Positions 20,317 to 36,467 of a DNA stretch of 37,019 nt are shown here, in pieces; the first letter of the stretch is position 1; each line of letters starts with the position of its first letter. This DNA comes from Massiliimicrobium timonense (GTDB taxonomy: Bacteria > Bacillota_I > Bacilli_A > Erysipelotrichales > Coprobacillaceae), in assembly GCF_002160865.1 (NCBI RefSeq), contig NZ_NFLJ01000034.1:1-37019 (forward strand), read 5' to 3'. Below the pieces are notes generated by a model. It ran no database searches and was not told the DNA's origin. It was given only the letters and a program-made list of their open reading frames with translations. Made by a program: the position numbers and the translations under genes.

Positions 20317-22110
20317 ATGTCACAATTTAATAGCATTGTAATTACAAAAAAAGGACAGGCTTTGATGGCTAAAATGTTGGCTGGAACTGGTAATGTTAAA
20401 TTTACAAAAATTGCTACAAGCACAACTGAATATCAAGACAGCCAGTTAGAAAATTTAACATCATTATCCAATATTAAACAAAATCAAAGTATCAGTAAAA
20501 TTACAAGACAAAATGATGTAGCAGTAAAAATTGAAGCAGCAATTGACAATAAAAATTTAGAAACTGGATATTATATTAAAACCGTTGGTATTTATGCACA
20601 AGACCCAAATGACGGTGAAATATTATATGCAGTTATGACTGCTAATGTAGCTGGTTGGTTACCACCATACAATGGTTTAGGTATTTCAAGCTGTATGTTC
20701 AATCTAACTGTAACGGTTGGTAACTCATCAAATGTTTCATTAACTGTATCAACTGGAGCAGTAGCAACGGTTAATGACATTCAAAATTTACAAAATCAAA
20801 TTACCACACTACAAAGTTATATTGGTTTCAGTGATGAAGATATTTATGGTGTAGAAGTTGATTTTACAAATAAAGTTTTTACCAGATTAGCAGGTGCAGA
20901 AAATTTAGTAGCTGGTGAAGATTTTGATGATATTGCACCATGGAACAGAAGAAGATGTAACGTTACTGATGATGGTAAAGTGGTAGCTTATTATGGTGAT
21001 AGCGGATATACAGAAACTGGAAAATTAACCAGTGCTATTACAATAGAAAGTGGTAAATATGCTGGTACTTATGCAGTTGGAACAAAAGTACAAGTTATGG
21101 TGGAACAGCCAAAATTTTACTATAAAGTAGTTCCTTTGAAATTAGAACCTATTACTACTGGTTATGGTTTTCATATGAGAAAGGCAAGATATTATATCTC
21201 ATCTACACCAAAAGAAGGCTTTAAATTACACCCAGCTTTTGAAGTAAATGGCAGAGAATTAGAAAACATCTATTTAAGTGCATATGAAGGGTCATTATAT
21301 GATGATTCAGCAAATGCATATATTTTAAATGATGAACAGGTAGCTGATTTCTCAAATGATTTACTTTCAAGTATTGCAAATGCAAAACCAGCAAGTGGAC
21401 TAACACAAAATTTGAATAGAACTAATATTAGATCACTTGCACATAATCGTGGTGACGGTTGGGAAATTTCATACGCATCAACAGTTTCAGCAACACAGTT
21501 ACTATTTTTAATTGAGTATGCATCTTTCAATATGCAATCCAAACTTGGCAATGGTGTAACTACTAAAACTGATGATGGAAGTACAAGCATGACAGAAATA
21601 ACTGGTGCTACAACAAATCTTGGTAATGGAAGTGGTTCAGTAACAAACAGCAATGAATTTAATGTTGTAACTTACAGAGGTGAAGAAAACTTCTTTGGTA
21701 ATATTTGGACTTGGATTGACGGTATGAACGTTGATAGAAACAGTACAAGTGAACCACAAGTTCATGATATTTATATTGCAAATTATAATTTTGCTGATGG
21801 TAGTAAGAACTCATCTTATGAAAAAGTTAATTTTCAAGCATGTTTAACAGAAGGTTATACAAGTGCTTTTGGATATGATGAAAATTTTGATTGGTTATTT
21901 GTACCAACAGAAGCTTTAGGAAATTCTAGTGTACCGGTTGGTGACTATTATTACAGAAACGCAAGTTATAACGGTATGTTGGCTGCCCTATTGGGTGGCG
22001 GCTGGCATTACGGTGTTACGGCTGGGGGCTTCTATTTGGATTTGCGTAATACCGCTTCTGGTCGTACTCGTGCTCTCGGCGGTCGCTTGGTGTATGTACC
22101 GCAAAATTAA
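20317..22110 (+). CDS. Tail fibre/receptor-binding protein, DGR target with C-terminal variable domain
   Basis: A 597-residue protein. Residues 1-160 resemble the phage tail-fibre N-terminal domain that attaches to the baseplate (FNSIVITKKGQALMAKMLAG, GYYIKTVGIYAQDPNDGE). A short coiled coil follows (about 155-170), then a beta-rich central part. The C-terminus (about 490-597) has the C-type-lectin/formylglycine-enzyme-like pattern used by DGR targets, ending GRTRALGGRLVYVPQN. Residues 556-592 are encoded by the variable repeat, whose differences from the template repeat all lie at template adenines. Variation hits residues 561, 562, 564-566, 568, 570, 571, 575, 577, 582, 584, 586, 588, 589 and 592, while W563, F572, Y573 and L574 stay fixed. 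It probably binds a host surface receptor. Confidence 0.92.
   Translation: MSQFNSIVITKKGQALMAKMLAGTGNVKFTKIATSTTEYQDSQLENLTSLSNIKQNQSISKITRQNDVAVKIEAAIDNKNLETGYYIKTVGIYAQDPNDGEILYAVMTANVAGWLPPYNGLGISSCMFNLTVTVGNSSNVSLTVSTGAVATVNDIQNLQNQITTLQSYIGFSDEDIYGVEVDFTNKVFTRLAGAENLVAGEDFDDIAPWNRRRCNVTDDGKVVAYYGDSGYTETGKLTSAITIESGKYAGTYAVGTKVQVMVEQPKFYYKVVPLKLEPITTGYGFHMRKARYYISSTPKEGFKLHPAFEVNGRELENIYLSAYEGSLYDDSANAYILNDEQVADFSNDLLSSIANAKPASGLTQNLNRTNIRSLAHNRGDGWEISYASTVSATQLLFLIEYASFNMQSKLGNGVTTKTDDGSTSMTEITGATTNLGNGSGSVTNSNEFNVVTYRGEENFFGNIWTWIDGMNVDRNSTSEPQVHDIYIANYNFADGSKNSSYEKVNFQACLTEGYTSAFGYDENFDWLFVPTEALGNSSVPVGDYYYRNASYNGMLAALLGGGWHYGVTAGGFYLDLRNTASGRTRALGGRLVYVPQN
21984..22092 (+). repeat. 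DGR variable repeat (VR)
   Basis: The 109 bp align without gaps to the template repeat at +215. They differ at 23 positions, every one an adenine in the template (16 to G, 5 to C, 2 to T), while ten template adenines and all 76 non-adenine bases are unchanged. The 3' end, GTCGCTTGG (22082-22090), is the conserved, adenine-free part expected of an initiation-of-mutagenic-homing site. Confidence 0.95.
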
Positions 22111-22127
22111 TCTTAAATAAAATTAAA

Positions 22128-22166
22128 TATATAACATGGGTGCAATAGTGCGATTGTTGTTATATA
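22128..22166 (+). other. Hairpin just downstream of the VR
   Basis: A perfect 9-bp stem, TATATAACA (22128-22136) / TGTTATATA (22158-22166), with a 21-base loop that has its own inner CAAT/ATTG pairing. It begins 35 bases after the VR end. DGR targets often have a hairpin or cruciform just downstream of VR that aids homing, though the known ones are GC-rich and closer. Alternatively it is part of the template RNA fold. Confidence 0.6.
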
Positions 22167-22198
22167 GCTTTGCACATGGTGAAGAAAAAAAGATTTTT

Positions 22199-22307
22199 TG
22201 CCCTATTAGGTAGCAACTGGAATAACAGTGTTAAAGCTAGGAGCTTCTATTTGAATTTGAATAATACCGCTTCTAATCGTAATCGTAATCTCAGCAGTCG
22301 CTTGGAA
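22199..22307 (+). repeat. DGR template repeat (TR)
   Basis: The invariant donor copy, in the same orientation as VR and RT. It contains 33 adenines, concentrated in AAY/AGY codons when read in the target frame (nine Asn codons, four Ser AGY codons), so that adenine mutagenesis gives wide amino-acid choice without stops. Shared sequence with VR begins at TGCCCTATT and ends at GTCGCTTGG plus two diversified bases. Confidence 0.95.
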
Positions 22308-22462
22308 CATGCAGTTAAAAATAAATGAGTAAAAATTATTGCACCCTACCGCTTGGTAAAATAGAAAAATCAAGTAAGTTGTATTGGTAGGTTTTTGAAA
22401 GTTTATTTTCAATTTCTCGAAGATTTGACTTCATATGTGCATACAAAGAAAAGGGGTATATT

Positions 22463-23527
22463 GTGAAACGTGTAGGCTATCTTTATGAACAGATATATTC
22501 TATGGATAATTTAAGATTAGCACATAAAAACGCTAGGAAAAACAAGACATGGTATAAAGAAGTTAAGATGATTGATACCAACCCAGATTACTATTTAAAA
22601 ATATTACAGGACAGTTTAATCAATCATACCTATAAAACTTCTGAATATGAAACTTTCATCAAAAAAGAAAATGGTAAGGAAAGACTAATTTATAAATTAC
22701 CATATTTCCCTGATCGAGTATGTCAATGGGCTATCCTTCAAGTGATAGAACCAATGTTAATAAAATATTTTACAACCAACACTTATTCAGCAATTCCAGG
22801 AAGAGGAACACATAAATGTCTATATGATGTAATTAATGCAATCAAAACTGATACTTATGGTTGTCAATACTGTTTAAAAATAGATGCCAAAAAGTATTAC
22901 CCATCTATTAATCATGATATTCTAAAAAGTATTTATGCCAGATTGTTCAAGGACAAAGAACTTCTAGACTTGATATATGAAATCATTGATTCAACTGATG
23001 GTGATACTGGTATACCTATTGGTAATTATTTATCACAGTATAGCGGTAATTTGTATTTATCACCGTTAGATCACTGGTTAAAAGAACAGAAACACATTAA
23101 GCATTTATTTAGATATATGGACGATATAGTCATTTTTGGAAGTTCAAAAGAAGAACTTCATAATTTAAGAATTGAAATGACTTCATTTATGCAATCTAAA
23201 TTAAAACTGGAAATGAAAGATAATTATCAAGTCTTTCCAACTTATGTTAGGGGTGTTGATTTTGTTGGTTATCGTATCTTTTTGGATTATGTGTTATTAA
23301 GAAAATCAACTTGTATTAATTTCAAAAGGAAAATGAATGAAATTAATAAAAAGCGGTTACGTGGTGAAATTATAAGCTATTCTGATTACTGCTCATTCAA
23401 TTCCTATAAAGGTATTTTGAAACACTGTAATTCATACAGGCTTATTGAGAAATACATGAAACCTTTAGAAAAATACGTTGATTCATATTATAAATTTTAT
23501 ATAAAGAAAGGTGGAAATTTGACATGA
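22463..23527 (+). CDS. DGR reverse transcriptase
   Basis: A 354-residue RT starting at GTG 22463 with an AAAAGGGG site (22449-22456). The catalytic motifs are in order: motif A KIDAKKYYPSIN (139-150, Asp141), motif B-region IPIGNYLSQYSGN (184-196), YMDD (218-221) and VDFVGYRI (265-272). The GNYLSQ form, with SQ where retroviral and group II RTs have SP, is the hallmark of DGR RTs. There is no maturase, endonuclease or integrase domain; length is typical for DGRs. It copies the template RNA into adenine-mutated cDNA that replaces VR. The gene ends in an ATGA overlap with the next gene. Confidence 0.95.
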   Translation: MKRVGYLYEQIYSMDNLRLAHKNARKNKTWYKEVKMIDTNPDYYLKILQDSLINHTYKTSEYETFIKKENGKERLIYKLPYFPDRVCQWAILQVIEPMLIKYFTTNTYSAIPGRGTHKCLYDVINAIKTDTYGCQYCLKIDAKKYYPSINHDILKSIYARLFKDKELLDLIYEIIDSTDGDTGIPIGNYLSQYSGNLYLSPLDHWLKEQKHIKHLFRYMDDIVIFGSSKEELHNLRIEMTSFMQSKLKLEMKDNYQVFPTYVRGVDFVGYRIFLDYVLLRKSTCINFKRKMNEINKKRLRGEIISYSDYCSFNSYKGILKHCNSYRLIEKYMKPLEKYVDSYYKFYIKKGGNLT

Positions 23528-23781: not shown

Positions 23782-23898
23782 ATGGCAAAGGTTTATTATG
23801 AATTGATCATCAAAGGTTTAAAGACAATTGATGATGTTCCAGAGAAATTAAAGGAACAGGTTCAAGAACTATTGGATAGTGATTCTAATGATAATTAG
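23782..23898 (+). CDS. CD1375-like small phage protein, copy 1
   Basis: A 38-residue protein, MAKVYYELIIKGLKTIDD followed by VPEKLKEQVQELLDS. It belongs to the family of roughly 40-residue proteins with YYxLIxKGxKTxxxVPE that occurs upstream of holin genes. GGGGG two codons before the stop of the preceding gene is the ribosome site. It is followed by a second, related gene. Confidence 0.7.
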   Translation: MAKVYYELIIKGLKTIDDVPEKLKEQVQELLDSDSNDN

Positions 23899-23941
23899 AA
23901 TTTTACTATATATTCTACTTCACATGAAAGGGGTGAAAGAA

Positions 23942-24067
23942 ATGGCTGTAATCTATGCAACTTTGATTGTCAAGGGAAAGAAAACATTTGATCAAGTTCC
24001 AGACAAAATCAAAGAACAGGTGAAAGAAGTGCTAATTGATTTGGAAGTACCAGAATTAGCAGAATAA
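23942..24067 (+). CDS. CD1375-like small phage protein, copy 2
   Basis: A 41-residue protein, MAVIYATLIVKGKKTFDQ then VPDKIKEQVKEVLIDLE, clearly similar to the preceding 38-residue protein (shared Y..LI.KG.KT...VP.K.KEQV.E). ATG 23942 is preceded by AAAGGGGTG (23928-23936). The longer frame from 23879 would add an unrelated hydrophobic extension, so I reject it. A terminator follows at once. Confidence 0.72.
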   Translation: MAVIYATLIVKGKKTFDQVPDKIKEQVKEVLIDLEVPELAE

Positions 24068-25896: not shown

Positions 25897-26032
25897 AGTA
25901 GAATGTAATTTTATATAATCTTATATAACTGAACAGTTCAAAAATCAGCGTAATATCATCTTATATAATGTTATGAAATTGAACTAATTTATGTTATAAT
26001 ATCATTAACAATAACAAGAAGGAGTGAAGCTT
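25888..26032. other. Prophage/host junction region with TTATATAA repeats
   Basis: This AT-rich gap has TTATATAA at 25911-25918, 25921-25928 and 25961-25968. The last two are part of an 11-bp direct repeat ATCTTATATAA (25918-25928 and 25958-25968, 40 bp apart). The right attachment site should be here or close by, because the endolysin is the last phage gene and the next gene is host-like. The core cannot be defined without the left end. Confidence 0.45.
25992..26000 (+). promoter_or_regulatory. Extended -10 promoter for the CMD-family gene
   Basis: TGTTATAAT (TGn plus a perfect -10 box) lies 33 bases before the ATG. No good -35 box at 17 bp, as is common with extended -10 promoters. Confidence 0.55.
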
Positions 26033-26776
26033 ATGAATCGAATAAAACGTAGTCAAGAAAAGTATGAACAGTTATTTTTAAAGGAACTGACAGTGGATGT
26101 GCATGATCCTGAGTTTATGGCACAATTACAAAGATTGATTTTTGGTGAAGTCTTTGATATTGGAAGTTTAACAGATCAACAAAGGGAAATGATAACTTGC
26201 ACTGTTTTAACTGTTTTACAGACTTTACCACAGCTCAAAGCTCATGTTCAAGCTGCATTGAATGTTGGTGTGACACCTTTAGAGTTAAGAGAAGCTTTTT
26301 ATCAATGTGCACCATTTATCGGCTATCCAAGAACTTTGAATGCGATTGGTGTTTTTAATGAAGTACTCCAACAAAGAGGTATTGAATTACCTTTAGAGCC
26401 TCAATGTGATTTTAATGATGATGAAAGATATGAACGAGGACTTGCGATTCAAAAAGAATTATATGGTGATGAAATTAAAGAACGTTATCAATATTTACCA
26501 GAAGAATTTCGTGAGGCATTACCAAGATTTTTAACAGAATGGTGTTTTGGAGATTGTTATACAAGAAAAGCAATGGATATTCAAACAAGAGAATTATTGA
26601 TTTTTTGTATTTTGACAGCCTTAAATGCAACTGGTCAGCTTTATGCTCATGCATTAGGTAATATAAAAGTAGGAAATTCTTTAGAAGTACTTTATAGTGC
26701 ATTGATTCAATGTTTACCTTATTTAGGTTTTCCTTGTATTTTTAATGCTTTTCAAGCCATTAAAGAGTTAGCATAA
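26033..26776 (+). CDS. Carboxymuconolactone decarboxylase-family protein, two CMD domains
   Basis: A 247-residue protein with two homologous CMD (AhpD-like) domains, about residues 30-120 and 150-245. Each has a helix with a conserved AHxxxALN/ALGNIKVG segment, then QCAPFIGYPRTLNA or QCLPYLGFPCIFNA. The AhpD CxxC pair is absent, so peroxiredoxin-reductase activity is unlikely; the fusion type is common in gut Firmicutes with unknown substrate. The start is ATG 26033, not the in-frame GTG at 26024, which lies inside the AAGGAG ribosome site. First host-like gene after the prophage. Confidence 0.82.
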   Translation: MNRIKRSQEKYEQLFLKELTVDVHDPEFMAQLQRLIFGEVFDIGSLTDQQREMITCTVLTVLQTLPQLKAHVQAALNVGVTPLELREAFYQCAPFIGYPRTLNAIGVFNEVLQQRGIELPLEPQCDFNDDERYERGLAIQKELYGDEIKERYQYLPEEFREALPRFLTEWCFGDCYTRKAMDIQTRELLIFCILTALNATGQLYAHALGNIKVGNSLEVLYSALIQCLPYLGFPCIFNAFQAIKELA

Positions 26777-26810
26777 AAAGAGGAGTTCATTTCTTTGAAC
26801 TCCTCAAAAC
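26776..26810 (-). terminator. Terminator of the response-regulator gene (possibly bidirectional)
   Basis: The 10-bp stem GAGGAGTTCA (26780-26789) / TGAACTCCTC (26796-26805). On the - strand it is followed by TTTTT, so it serves the leftward gene; the + side has only a weak tail but may also stop the CMD transcript. Confidence 0.8.
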
Positions 26811-26817
26811 TTATCTG

Positions 26818-27498
26818 TTAAAAAGCCATTTTATAACTATCTTTTCCAAAACGTTTAATATATTCCTGTTCATTATTAGCCAATCGTAATTTCATAATGA
26901 CATTACTAATTAAAGCTGGAATAGATGTCCCATCTTCATATGTAGAAGAACCCCATACTTGTTCAAAAAGATATGACACACCAAAAGGTTGGTATGGATG
27001 AGCAATTAAAATAGATAAAAGCTTGTATTCATTTTTAGTCAGTGTCAGTGCTTTTCCATGACATGAACATGTTCTGGCTGTTGTATCCATGACAATATCT
27101 TTGAAACGATAGATACGTCTAGGTTTTAAGATTCCATTTTTATAAACAGATTGAATTTTAATATCTAAATCTTTGAGTGCAAAAGGTTCTGTTAAGTAAT
27201 CATCAGCTCCTGCATTTAATAAAGATTCTAAATAATCAGGAGCAAGAGCATCACTTAATACAATAACAATGGGTTGACCATGTAATTTGATTTGAACTAA
27301 AAAATCTCTAATACGAATACGTGGAAAATTATCTTCAATGATGACACAATCATAAATCTGATTTTCAAAATAATTTTCTAAATTTTTATATGTTATGACT
27401 TGTTGACAAATATAGTCTTTAGATTCTAAATAGTCTTTGATTTGATTATTGAAATCTTGATGACTGTGAATAATAAGAGCCTTAAATTGTCCAAACAT
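26818..27498 (-). CDS. Orphan OmpR/PhoB-type regulator with degenerate receiver
   Basis: 226 residues: receiver-like domain (1-120) and winged helix (130-226, with LTLTKNEYKLLSILI and a terminal RFGKDSYKM wing). Key receiver residues are replaced. The acidic pocket is HSH (residues 11-13), the phospho-acceptor position holds Glu55 (CVIIEDNFP) and the conserved Lys is Glu104 (YLTEPF). It therefore probably works without phosphorylation, like atypical OmpR regulators such as actinobacterial GlnR. No histidine kinase is adjacent. It is divergent from glnN, so control of glutamine synthesis is a reasonable inference. Perfect GAGGAGGTG ribosome site. Confidence 0.85.
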   Translation of the reverse strand: MFGQFKALIIHSHQDFNNQIKDYLESKDYICQQVITYKNLENYFENQIYDCVIIEDNFPRIRIRDFLVQIKLHGQPIVIVLSDALAPDYLESLLNAGADDYLTEPFALKDLDIKIQSVYKNGILKPRRIYRFKDIVMDTTARTCSCHGKALTLTKNEYKLLSILIAHPYQPFGVSYLFEQVWGSSTYEDGTSIPALISNVIMKLRLANNEQEYIKRFGKDSYKMAF

Positions 27499-27559
27499 AA
27501 AATTTCACCTCCTCATAAGTATAATATGAAATAAGAAAAATACAATAGAATATGAAAAT

Positions 27560-27571
27560 ATTTCATGAAAT
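27560..27571. promoter_or_regulatory. 12-bp palindrome between regulator and glnN
   Basis: ATTTCATGAAAT is a perfect palindrome 38 bp upstream of the glnN -35 box. ATGAAA occurs at 27526, 27552 and 27565 (spacings 26 and 13). Candidate operator for the divergent regulator. Confidence 0.35.
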
Positions 27572-27608
27572 TTTGATTGAATTTATAGATGAGTGTTAAG
27601 ATTTTATA

Positions 27609-27637
27609 TAGACATGATGATAAGAAATTGATACAAT
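27609..27637 (+). promoter_or_regulatory. glnN promoter
   Basis: The -35 box TAGACA (27609-27614) is 17 bp from the -10 box TACAAT (27632-27637), which has an extended TGA (27629-27631). The start codon follows 27 bases later. Confidence 0.65.
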
Positions 27638-27664
27638 GGTTGAAAAAAGGGGGATGTATTGTTC

Positions 27665-29743
27665 ATGGATATGAATAAGTTACTTGAAAATTATGGATGT
27701 TTGACTTTCAGCGATGATGTGATGAGAGAAAGAATTCCAAATTCAACATATAAGGCTTTTCATAAAGCATTAGATCAAGGTGAGCCACTAGCGAAAGAAA
27801 CAGCTACTGTGATTGCGAATGCGATGAAAATATGGGCTGTAGAAAATGGAGCAACTCATTTTACACACTGGTTTATGCCTATGACAGGTTTAACAGCTGA
27901 AAAGCATGATGCTTTTTTAGAGCCTGATGGAAATAAAGCCATTTTAGAATTTAGTGGAAAAACACTAAGAAAAGGGGAACCAGATGCTTCATCTTTTCCA
28001 AGTGGGGGATTACGTGCGACTTTTGAAGCACGTGGTTATACAGCATGGGATTGTACTTCACCAGCTTTTGTAAAAGATGGAAGTTTGTATATTCCAACAT
28101 TATTTTGTTCTTATACAGGAGAAGCTCTTGATAAGAAAACACCTTTATTGAAATCAGTAGATGCTTTAACAAAAGCTTCATGTCGTTTATTACCAATGCT
28201 TGGAATGGAAGGTGTGACACATGTTGATGCTTCAGTAGGAAGTGAACAGGAATATTTTTTGGTGGCTGATGAATTTTATCAAAAACGTATGGATTTGAAG
28301 TTGACAGGAAGAACTTTATTCGGGGCTATGGCACCAAAAGGGCAAGAACTGGAAGATCATTATTTTGGAAGTTTAAAACGTAAAGTAGCAGCTTTCATGA
28401 AAGAATTAGATCATGAATTGTGGAAATATGGGATTCCATCAAAAACAAAGCATAATGAAGTTGCACCAGCACAACATGAAGTGGCTTGTGTTTATCGTAA
28501 TGTCAATATTACAACAGATAATAATCATTTATTGATGTTGTTGATGCAGGATATTGCTAAAAAACATGGACTGAGATGTCTGCTTCATGAAAAACCATTT
28601 GCGGGAGTCAATGGTTCAGGAAAACATGATAACTGGTCTGTTGTGACAAATACGGGAGTGAACTTGTTTAATCCAGGTCCTCATCCTATTGAAAATCTGC
28701 CTTTTTTAGCTGCTCTTGCTTGTACTATTAAAGCTGTGGATGAGTTTGCGGATTTATTACGTATGTCAACTGCGACAGCTGGTAATGATCATCGTTTAGG
28801 AGCGAATGAAGCACCACCTGCCATTATCTCAATGTTTTTAGGAGAAGATTTGGATAAACTGATTCATGCGATTATTGAAGGAGAAGAATTAGAAAATAAT
28901 GATAAAGCCAGATTCCAGACAGGCGTTTCTGTTGTTCCTGATTTTTCTAAAGATAATACAGATCGTAATCGTACATCTCCTTTTGCTTTTACAGGTAATA
29001 AATTTGAATTTAGAGCAGTTGGTTCTTCACAATCCATTGCTGGTCCTAATACTGTCTTAAATTCTATTTTGGCTTATGAAATGGAAGAAATGGCTGATTT
29101 GATTGAACAGGGACAAGAACCAATGGAAGTCATTAAAACATTCTTATCTCAACATCAAAGAATTATTTTCAATGGAGATGGTTACTCTCGTGAATGGGAA
29201 GAAGAAGCAAAACGTAGAGGACTTCCAAATCGTAAAAACACAGTGGATGCGATGGAATGTTTAAAAGATGAAAAGAACATTCAAATGTTTAAACGTTTAG
29301 GTATTTATAGTGAAATTGAACTTCAGGCACGTTATGAAATCTTGCTTGAAAACTATAATAAAACAATTCAGGTAGAGGCTTTAACGGCTTTAAAAATGGC
29401 AAGAAATGAAATCTATCCAGCCGCTTTATCTTATCTAAATCAATTAACACAAACATCTTTGCATATGAAAGAATTAAATATCGGTTGTGATTATGTGATT
29501 GATGATGTTAAAAATCTTTCATCATTGTTATCTCAAATGAAAAATCAAATGATGATTTTAGAAAAACATATTGAAAGAGCACAACATGTTCAAGATGATA
29601 TTTTCGAGATTGCAAAAATATGGCGAGATGATGTTTTAACAACAATGAATACATTAAGAGAAATTGTTGATTCTATTGAAAACAGTGTTGATGAAAAATA
29701 TTGGCCTATGCCAACATATATGGATTTATTATTTGGTATTTAA
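27665..29743 (+). CDS. glnN: Glutamine synthetase type III
   Basis: 692 residues, the normal length of GSIII, much longer than GSI. It joins ammonia and glutamate with ATP, the main route of ammonium assimilation. The GSIII N-terminal region (THFTHWFMPMTG, FPSGGLRATFEARGYTAWD) is followed by the catalytic barrel with KTKHNEVAPAQHEVA, GVNGSGKHDNWS, NDHRLGANEAPPA and FRAVGSSQSIAGPN, which hold the metal and ATP ligands. I use ATG 27665 with the AAAAAAGGGGG site; TTG 27659 and ATG 27671 are alternatives. It lies divergent from an orphan regulator. Terminated just after the stop. Confidence 0.95.
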   Translation: MDMNKLLENYGCLTFSDDVMRERIPNSTYKAFHKALDQGEPLAKETATVIANAMKIWAVENGATHFTHWFMPMTGLTAEKHDAFLEPDGNKAILEFSGKTLRKGEPDASSFPSGGLRATFEARGYTAWDCTSPAFVKDGSLYIPTLFCSYTGEALDKKTPLLKSVDALTKASCRLLPMLGMEGVTHVDASVGSEQEYFLVADEFYQKRMDLKLTGRTLFGAMAPKGQELEDHYFGSLKRKVAAFMKELDHELWKYGIPSKTKHNEVAPAQHEVACVYRNVNITTDNNHLLMLLMQDIAKKHGLRCLLHEKPFAGVNGSGKHDNWSVVTNTGVNLFNPGPHPIENLPFLAALACTIKAVDEFADLLRMSTATAGNDHRLGANEAPPAIISMFLGEDLDKLIHAIIEGEELENNDKARFQTGVSVVPDFSKDNTDRNRTSPFAFTGNKFEFRAVGSSQSIAGPNTVLNSILAYEMEEMADLIEQGQEPMEVIKTFLSQHQRIIFNGDGYSREWEEEAKRRGLPNRKNTVDAMECLKDEKNIQMFKRLGIYSEIELQARYEILLENYNKTIQVEALTALKMARNEIYPAALSYLNQLTQTSLHMKELNIGCDYVIDDVKNLSSLLSQMKNQMMILEKHIERAQHVQDDIFEIAKIWRDDVLTTMNTLREIVDSIENSVDEKYWPMPTYMDLLFGI

Positions 29744-33055: not shown

Positions 33056-33057
<2 letters not shown>
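33028..33057 (-). terminator. Terminator of the intact GH1 gene
   Basis: The 10-bp stem AGAACTTGTC (33032-33041) / GACAAGTTCT (33048-33057) with a 6-nt loop; leftward T-run follows. The TAG stop codon overlaps the stem base. Confidence 0.88.
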
Positions 33058-34555
<1,498 letters not shown>

Positions 34556-35242
34556 TCACTTAAATCTTCACCATTAGAAGCAATGACTTTTTTATACCAA
34601 TAGAAAGAATCTTTTCTATATCTATCTAAAGTTTTTAAATCAAATTCATCTCTATCAACATAAATAAATCCATAACGTTTAACCATACCTTCATGAGTAG
34701 AAATTAAATCAACAGCAGACCAAGGACAATATCCTAACATTTCACATCCATCGCTAATTGCTAAACGAACTTGTGAGATATGATCTTGATAATATTTGAT
34801 ACGATATTGATCATGAACTTTTCCATCTTCTGTTAATGTATCATAAGCTCCTAAACCATTTTCAGTGACTAATAATGGCAAACGATATCTTGAATACATT
34901 TCACGAATCGTTGCTCTAAATCCTTGAGGATCAATTTCCCAACCGAATTCAGTTGTTGGTAAGTTTGGATTTCTAAATCCTTTATACATTCCAGTAATGC
35001 CTTTAGAAGTCTGTTGATCAGCAGCACCAGATAAATCTTCTGTCCCATCAGACCACTGGCAAGTAGCAGTATTGTAGTAGTTGAAACCAATGAAATCTGG
35101 ATGTCCATTTTTTAAAGCTTCTGCGTCACCTTCAGCAAATTCAGGTGTTGCATCATTTTCTTCTAACCATGCCCAAACAATGTTGTTGTAAACACCATAA
35201 ACGGCCATATCTAAATATAACCAGTTTCTAATAGCGTTGAAG

Positions 35243-36467
<1,225 letters not shown>

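Follow-up and report, generated by a model that had tools for sequence, protein, structure and literature searches.

Comparative evidence for a helix that closes off the template repeat in a DGR RNA of the RT-17 clade

A long-range helix, here called P1, spans the template repeat (TR) of a diversity-generating retroelement (DGR) in the window, that is, in the whole stretch of 37,019 nucleotides of Massiliimicrobium timonense DNA that was analysed. As comparison with the sequences of related elements shows, P1 is a selected helix that has been kept by evolution while its letters change. The left arm GGGTGCAATAGT (22138..22149, + strand) is the 5′ strand of this TR-closing helix and the right arm ATTATTGCACCC (22335..22346, + strand) is its 3′ strand; both were assigned by covariation in relatives, and the 3′ end of the right arm overlaps the start of a match to the RT-17 RNA. 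In the reading that we consider probable, one DGR RNA extends from just past the target gene to the reverse transcriptase (RT) gene, P1 closes off the TR, and the inner edges of the helix set the primer and the limit of copying. The element belongs to the DGRs, and its spacer is an Rfam RNA that has been described before. What is new, as far as checked, is that the RT-17 clade has a TR-closing helix, that RT-17 is linked to DGR RNAs and that the layout is held in common with the BPP-1 family. In the literature searched, nothing linking RT-17 or Rfam to DGRs was found, although such a link may still be published, and some of the results given here may already be part of the BPP-1 structure paper or of the RT-17 discovery paper.

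The prophage and its DGR

The window contains a contractile-tail prophage with genes for terminase, portal, sheath, tape measure, baseplate, tail fibre and endolysin. The target gene of the DGR encodes the phage tail fibre protein (20317..22110, + strand; PF12571, phrog_5302), and the 3′ end of this gene contains the variable repeat (VR; 21984..22092, + strand), located 215 nt upstream of the TR. The TR (22199..22307, + strand) was delimited as the stretch whose TR/VR mismatches all fall on TR adenines; 8 non-A mismatches were counted and all of them lie outside 22199-22307. The gene of the DGR-type RT (22463..23527, + strand; PF00078, phrog_1423) has a GTG start, encodes 354 aa and adjoins the TR, which lies upstream at a distance of 155 nt. 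Two features of a DGR are therefore present, namely an RT gene of this type next to a TR and a VR inside the target gene whose departures from the TR are at adenines of the TR.

Two variable repeats could be compared directly, because a Thomasclavelia MAG contains a near-identical prophage (locus L062). Since 14 of the 14 differences between the VR of the window (21984-22092) and that of L062 are at TR adenines, this sequence pattern indicates that the DGR of the window has been active and has diversified its tail fibre. Leader, TR and spacer of the two prophages have the same sequence except for a difference of 2 nt in poly-A length. In an RT search of 98 relatives, some RT match was obtained for 40, and an RT identity of 100% was found only in the genome of the window and in genome G041.

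Further observations concern the surroundings of the DGR. Two small adjacent ORFs with alike starts (...LI.KG.KT.D.VP..) were seen by eye downstream of the RT gene at 23783-24010. The minus-strand genes at 33056-34549 and 35589-36467 match phrog_11396, a family whose function is not known, and these genes (window 33056-36467) are located past host-like genes at 26024-29743.

P1, P2 and their counterparts in relatives

The preliminary description had proposed a 12-bp pairing with one G-U that closes off the whole TR, and both arms of this pairing are indeed present in the window, about 185-200 nt apart, across the TR. Both arms are contained in the minimum-energy fold as well as in the centroid fold. 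The helix score of the window was matched by 0 of 100 dinucleotide shuffles (300 nt, 100-400 nt upstream of the hairpin that follows P1; scored as row L003, which has the same sequence as the window in the P1 region), and 1 of 200 shuffles was as good when one defect was allowed. The global fold of 22100-22420 was not more stable than that of shuffles (z = -0.73). By eye, GTGCAA (22140-22145) and TTGCAC (22170-22175) form a possible local hairpin that would compete with P1.

For the comparative analysis, RT relatives were taken from viral contigs (29 and 80 loci, partly the same) and from genomes (10 loci). A usable RT start was available for 108 loci, an anchor hairpin score of at least 3 was reached in 91 of these, and 67 loci were left after removal of redundant loci and of those with the anchor less than 400 nt from the locus start. 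In each locus, the 20 nt that precede the hairpin were searched for helices with the region 100-400 nt upstream. The mean best helix score of the 67 non-redundant loci was 25.1, whereas dinucleotide shuffles and right arms swapped between loci each gave 15.0, and in 45 of the 67 at most 1 of 100 shuffles was as good. For 66 of the 67 loci the pairs were counted with purpose-written scripts and without selection for P1, and 757 of 924 cells (81.9%) were standard pairs, whereas the swapped and re-optimised control for these 66 loci reached a mean of 65.3% and a maximum of 68.1%.

P1 was called when the score was at least 18 and 140-300 nt lay between arm and hairpin. By these criteria, it was found just upstream of the RT-17 hairpin in 57 of the 67 non-redundant loci and was missing in 10. 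The following figures refer to these 57 loci, which were selected for P1; the unselected figures are the 67-locus scores and the 66-locus pair count. Among the cells of the 12 pairs, 90.8% were paired, compared to 57.8% with reshuffled partners (maximum 62.1%) and to 32.8-46.4% with the arms slid, and the number of double-change cells was 243 versus 76 in shuffled arms. Pairs 2 and 3 are almost always G-C, pairs 5-12 occur in all four Watson-Crick types, and the arm sequences vary widely, as in AGGTACAACAAAC/GTTTGTTGTACCT (L011), GGGTAATAAGT/GCTTATTACCC (L014) and AGGCTTATAGTACCCA/TGGGTACTATAAGCCT (L141). Arms diverging without compensation had been named beforehand as the observation that would speak against the helix. 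Since the arms of the homologues diverge with compensatory changes, the proposed long-range helix closing off the TR is borne out by covariation across relatives. A GC-rich terminator-like hairpin was seen by eye between TR and right arm in L004, L008, L030, L083 and L101.

Alternatively, the two arms could act as a DNA inverted repeat (a cruciform or recombination site) like that of BPP-1, and not as RNA. The VR stretch is followed after 46 nt by the left arm (22092 to 22138), and efficient retrohoming of BPP-1 is described as requiring a DNA hairpin or cruciform downstream of the VR (Guo et al. 2011, PMC3240598), so that an inverted repeat near the VR end is common to both elements. However, the BPP-1 element as described there has a GC-rich stem of 7-10 bp and a 4-nt GRNA loop, whereas P1 is a 12-bp helix across the TR with arms about 185 nt apart, and the right arm of P1 adjoins an RNA family, RT-17. 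Moreover, G-U cells exceed A-C cells (54 versus 29, both being tolerated equally), and this excess speaks more for a + strand RNA than for a DNA inverted repeat, which we regard as a very unlikely explanation.

A second helix, P2, would be formed by the leader strand GCGATTGTTG (22150..22159, + strand) and its possible partner CAGCAGTCGC (22292..22301, + strand) inside the TR 3′ end, as contained in the centroid fold. In the window, P2 has p = 0.003. With a wide target, which was tested first, 7 of 57 loci were at p<=0.05, and with a narrower target 15 of 51, a figure that carries some hindsight because the narrower target was chosen after the wide-target test. These p-values are not independent of one another, as the loci are related. 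The own mean was 12.05, while 100 swaps reached at most 11.86, and examples in relatives are CCTGAT/ATCAGG (L015) and CCGATGTT/AATATCGG (L119). Support for this pairing of the leader with the TR 3′ end is moderate, and P2 is seen in only part of the clade.

The left arm of P1 had also been placed in the loop of a separate 9-bp hairpin (22128-22136/22158-22166), and a pseudoknot, kissing structure or switch had been suggested for hairpin and helix together. This hairpin exists in the window, and 10% of 60 shuffles pair equally well (p = 0.10). Its counterpart was found at p<=0.05 in 0 of 57 related loci, and P2 would take two of its nucleotides (22158, 22159). The hairpin is specific to this element and close to what chance would give, and because it is without counterpart in relatives the pseudoknot or switch is unsupported and in our judgement extremely unlikely.

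The RT-17 RNA and the BPP-1 family

The feature extends beyond the end given for it in the preliminary description, as the right arm of P1 passes gap-free into a conserved hairpin and on into the RT-17 RNA. The anchor hairpin TACC-GCTT-GGTA (22347..22358, + strand) directly abuts P1, and its stem is present in the RT-17 model. The RT-17 RNA (RF03020; 22342..22446, + strand) corresponds to the spacer of the DGR RNA and was matched with 50 bits at a gathering cut-off of 40.4 (E 2.6e-8) and with all 95 model positions. The Rfam model is without left arm and has the end of the right arm unpaired, whereas the window has a TR-closing helix, which lies outside the model. Because the right arm enters RT-17 and the model is without left arm, RT-17 seems to represent the 3′ part of a DGR RNA. 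Matches to RT-17 were obtained in 19 of 20 and in 5 of 17 relatives scanned and were always upstream of the RT; in a scan of 392 genomes of the phylum, no match was found except in the window's own genome.

Duplex energies were also computed for the reference phages, yielding many small helices chained together and no discrimination, and helices were therefore scored instead as contiguous or with one defect. In the one-defect test of 19 elements (window included), at most 4 of 200 shuffles were as good in 12, among others crAssphage LMMB, Perkons, cr130, Versailles, vir525 and the Avd-bearing BalMu-1, and 7 of the 19 were at chance level; the anchors of this test were chosen by eye, several of them because an arm had first been spotted by eye. 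For BPP-1, which is one of these 7 when anchored at the first spacer hairpin, 113 of 200 shuffles were as good, and the global folding energy gave z = -0.78.

The helix of BPP-1 is visible only in the alignment of its family, and its right arm is located deeper in the spacer than the first hairpin. For BPP-1, a conserved structure has been predicted for the trailing RNA (PMC8867640). From the 67 loci of the family 55 were taken, of which 34 were non-redundant, and in the alignment of these 34 relatives AGGGCAG at the end of avd pairs with CTGTCCT as a TR-closing helix. Each of the seven pairs is kept in 32 or 33 of the 34 relatives, with C-G/T-A, A-T/C-G and G-C/A-T exchanges among them, and in some relatives the helix is extended to 12 bp (GGGGTAACTTGG/CCGAGTTATCCT in L207). 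A UUCG anchor was present in 42 of the 55 loci, 27 of them non-redundant, and swapped arms of these 27 often pair too (own mean 19.4, swaps 15.6). As the arms are alike, so that swapped arms often pair, the support in the BPP-1 family comes from the pair exchanges.

The TR-closing helix is followed directly by a small hairpin and then by an A-rich run both in the window with its relatives and in the BPP-1 family, and TR, VR and RT are in one order in BPP-1 and the window. The BPP-1 family differs in its spacer sequence, in the larger distance of the right arm from the TR and in the elements that flank this arm, namely a conserved GTGGTCAG directly 5′ and a UUCG hairpin before the A-rich run 3′. 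Directly 5′ of the right arm, the window does not have GTGGTCAG and instead has AATGAGTAAAA. BPP-1 has an annotated avd gene, whereas no Avd was called among the neighbour genes tested in the window, which were a subset of the window ORFs; Avd is an accessory protein of many but not all DGRs. A TGTG motif near the right arm occurs in 16 of 57 clade members, compared to a mean of 3.8 and a maximum of 9 in shuffled sequences, and is absent in the window.

Priming, copy limit and proposed mechanism

A56, which we take to be the cDNA primer adenine of BPP-1, falls on the A of GTGGTCAG, 1-2 nt 5′ of the BPP-1 right arm when counted from the annotated TR end. The suggestion made earlier that the helix marks the priming region is supported indirectly, through the succession of GTGGTCAG and right arm in BPP-1 and the presumed identity of A56 with the A of this motif. 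From the assumed position of A56, candidate priming adenines in the window are predicted just 5′ of the right arm of P1 (22331..22334, + strand). Priming of the cDNA by an internal spacer adenine and a stop of synthesis at a motif at the avd 3′ end are described in PMC12875486, and the left arm of BPP-1 sits at the avd 3′ end, the place of this stop motif.

In the proposed mechanism, the transcript from just past the target gene to the RT gene would fold as a single DGR RNA, in which P1 (22138-22149/22335-22346) would loop off the TR and could stack on the TACC-GCTT-GGTA hairpin of the RT-17 spacer. P1 would join both TR ends and, together with the adjacent hairpin and the spacer, would be part of a docking platform for the RT. 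The priming adenine (A22331-A22334) would be presented at the inner edge of the right arm and the copied stretch would be bounded by that of the left arm, and until extension starts P2 may keep the TR 3′ end next to the primer. For P1 in the window clade, comparison shows the helix itself, and it is the primer and stop roles that we infer.

A real RNA structure could also serve transcript stability or control of RT expression, and not priming. P1 and the hairpin mark off a compact domain, and terminator-like hairpins are located between TR and right arm in some relatives (e.g. L004, L008, L083). However, the RT start lies 117 nt past P1 and is not covered by it, and in the BPP-1 family the motif with the presumed primer A56 abuts the right arm. 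A role of P1 in stability or regulation in place of priming seems unlikely to us.

A role of P1 in setting primer and copy limit would resemble the working of the retron msr-msd RNA, in which the a1/a2 helix closes the template RNA and the primer nucleotide is located beside the helix. Retron priming is described as using the 2′-OH of a guanosine (PMC8867640). The likeness consists of a long-range helix that closes the template RNA with a 2′-OH primer nucleotide adjacent to it. In contrast to retrons, the element of the window carries a TR and a VR that differ by adenine-specific changes, its RT is of a different family, and it is not a member of this group. It seems to us an evenly balanced question whether the RT-17 clade and the BPP-1 family share a general DGR RNA core of TR-closing helix, fused hairpin and priming adenine at the inner edge, which would set cDNA start and stop as a clamp like retron a1/a2 and of which RT-17 would be the 3′ half.

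P1 would explain in structural terms where DGR cDNA may begin and end, and it ties the Rfam RNA RT-17 to DGRs. It also offers a motif with which DGR RNAs could be found in systems far from BPP-1, and the model predicts testable compensatory mutants and priming positions. Another element of the spacer, GTATTGGTA / GTNTTNGTA (22380-22389 in the window, and in relatives), is part of RT-17, lies 3′ of P1 and is strongly conserved; it is possibly another RT contact or priming site.
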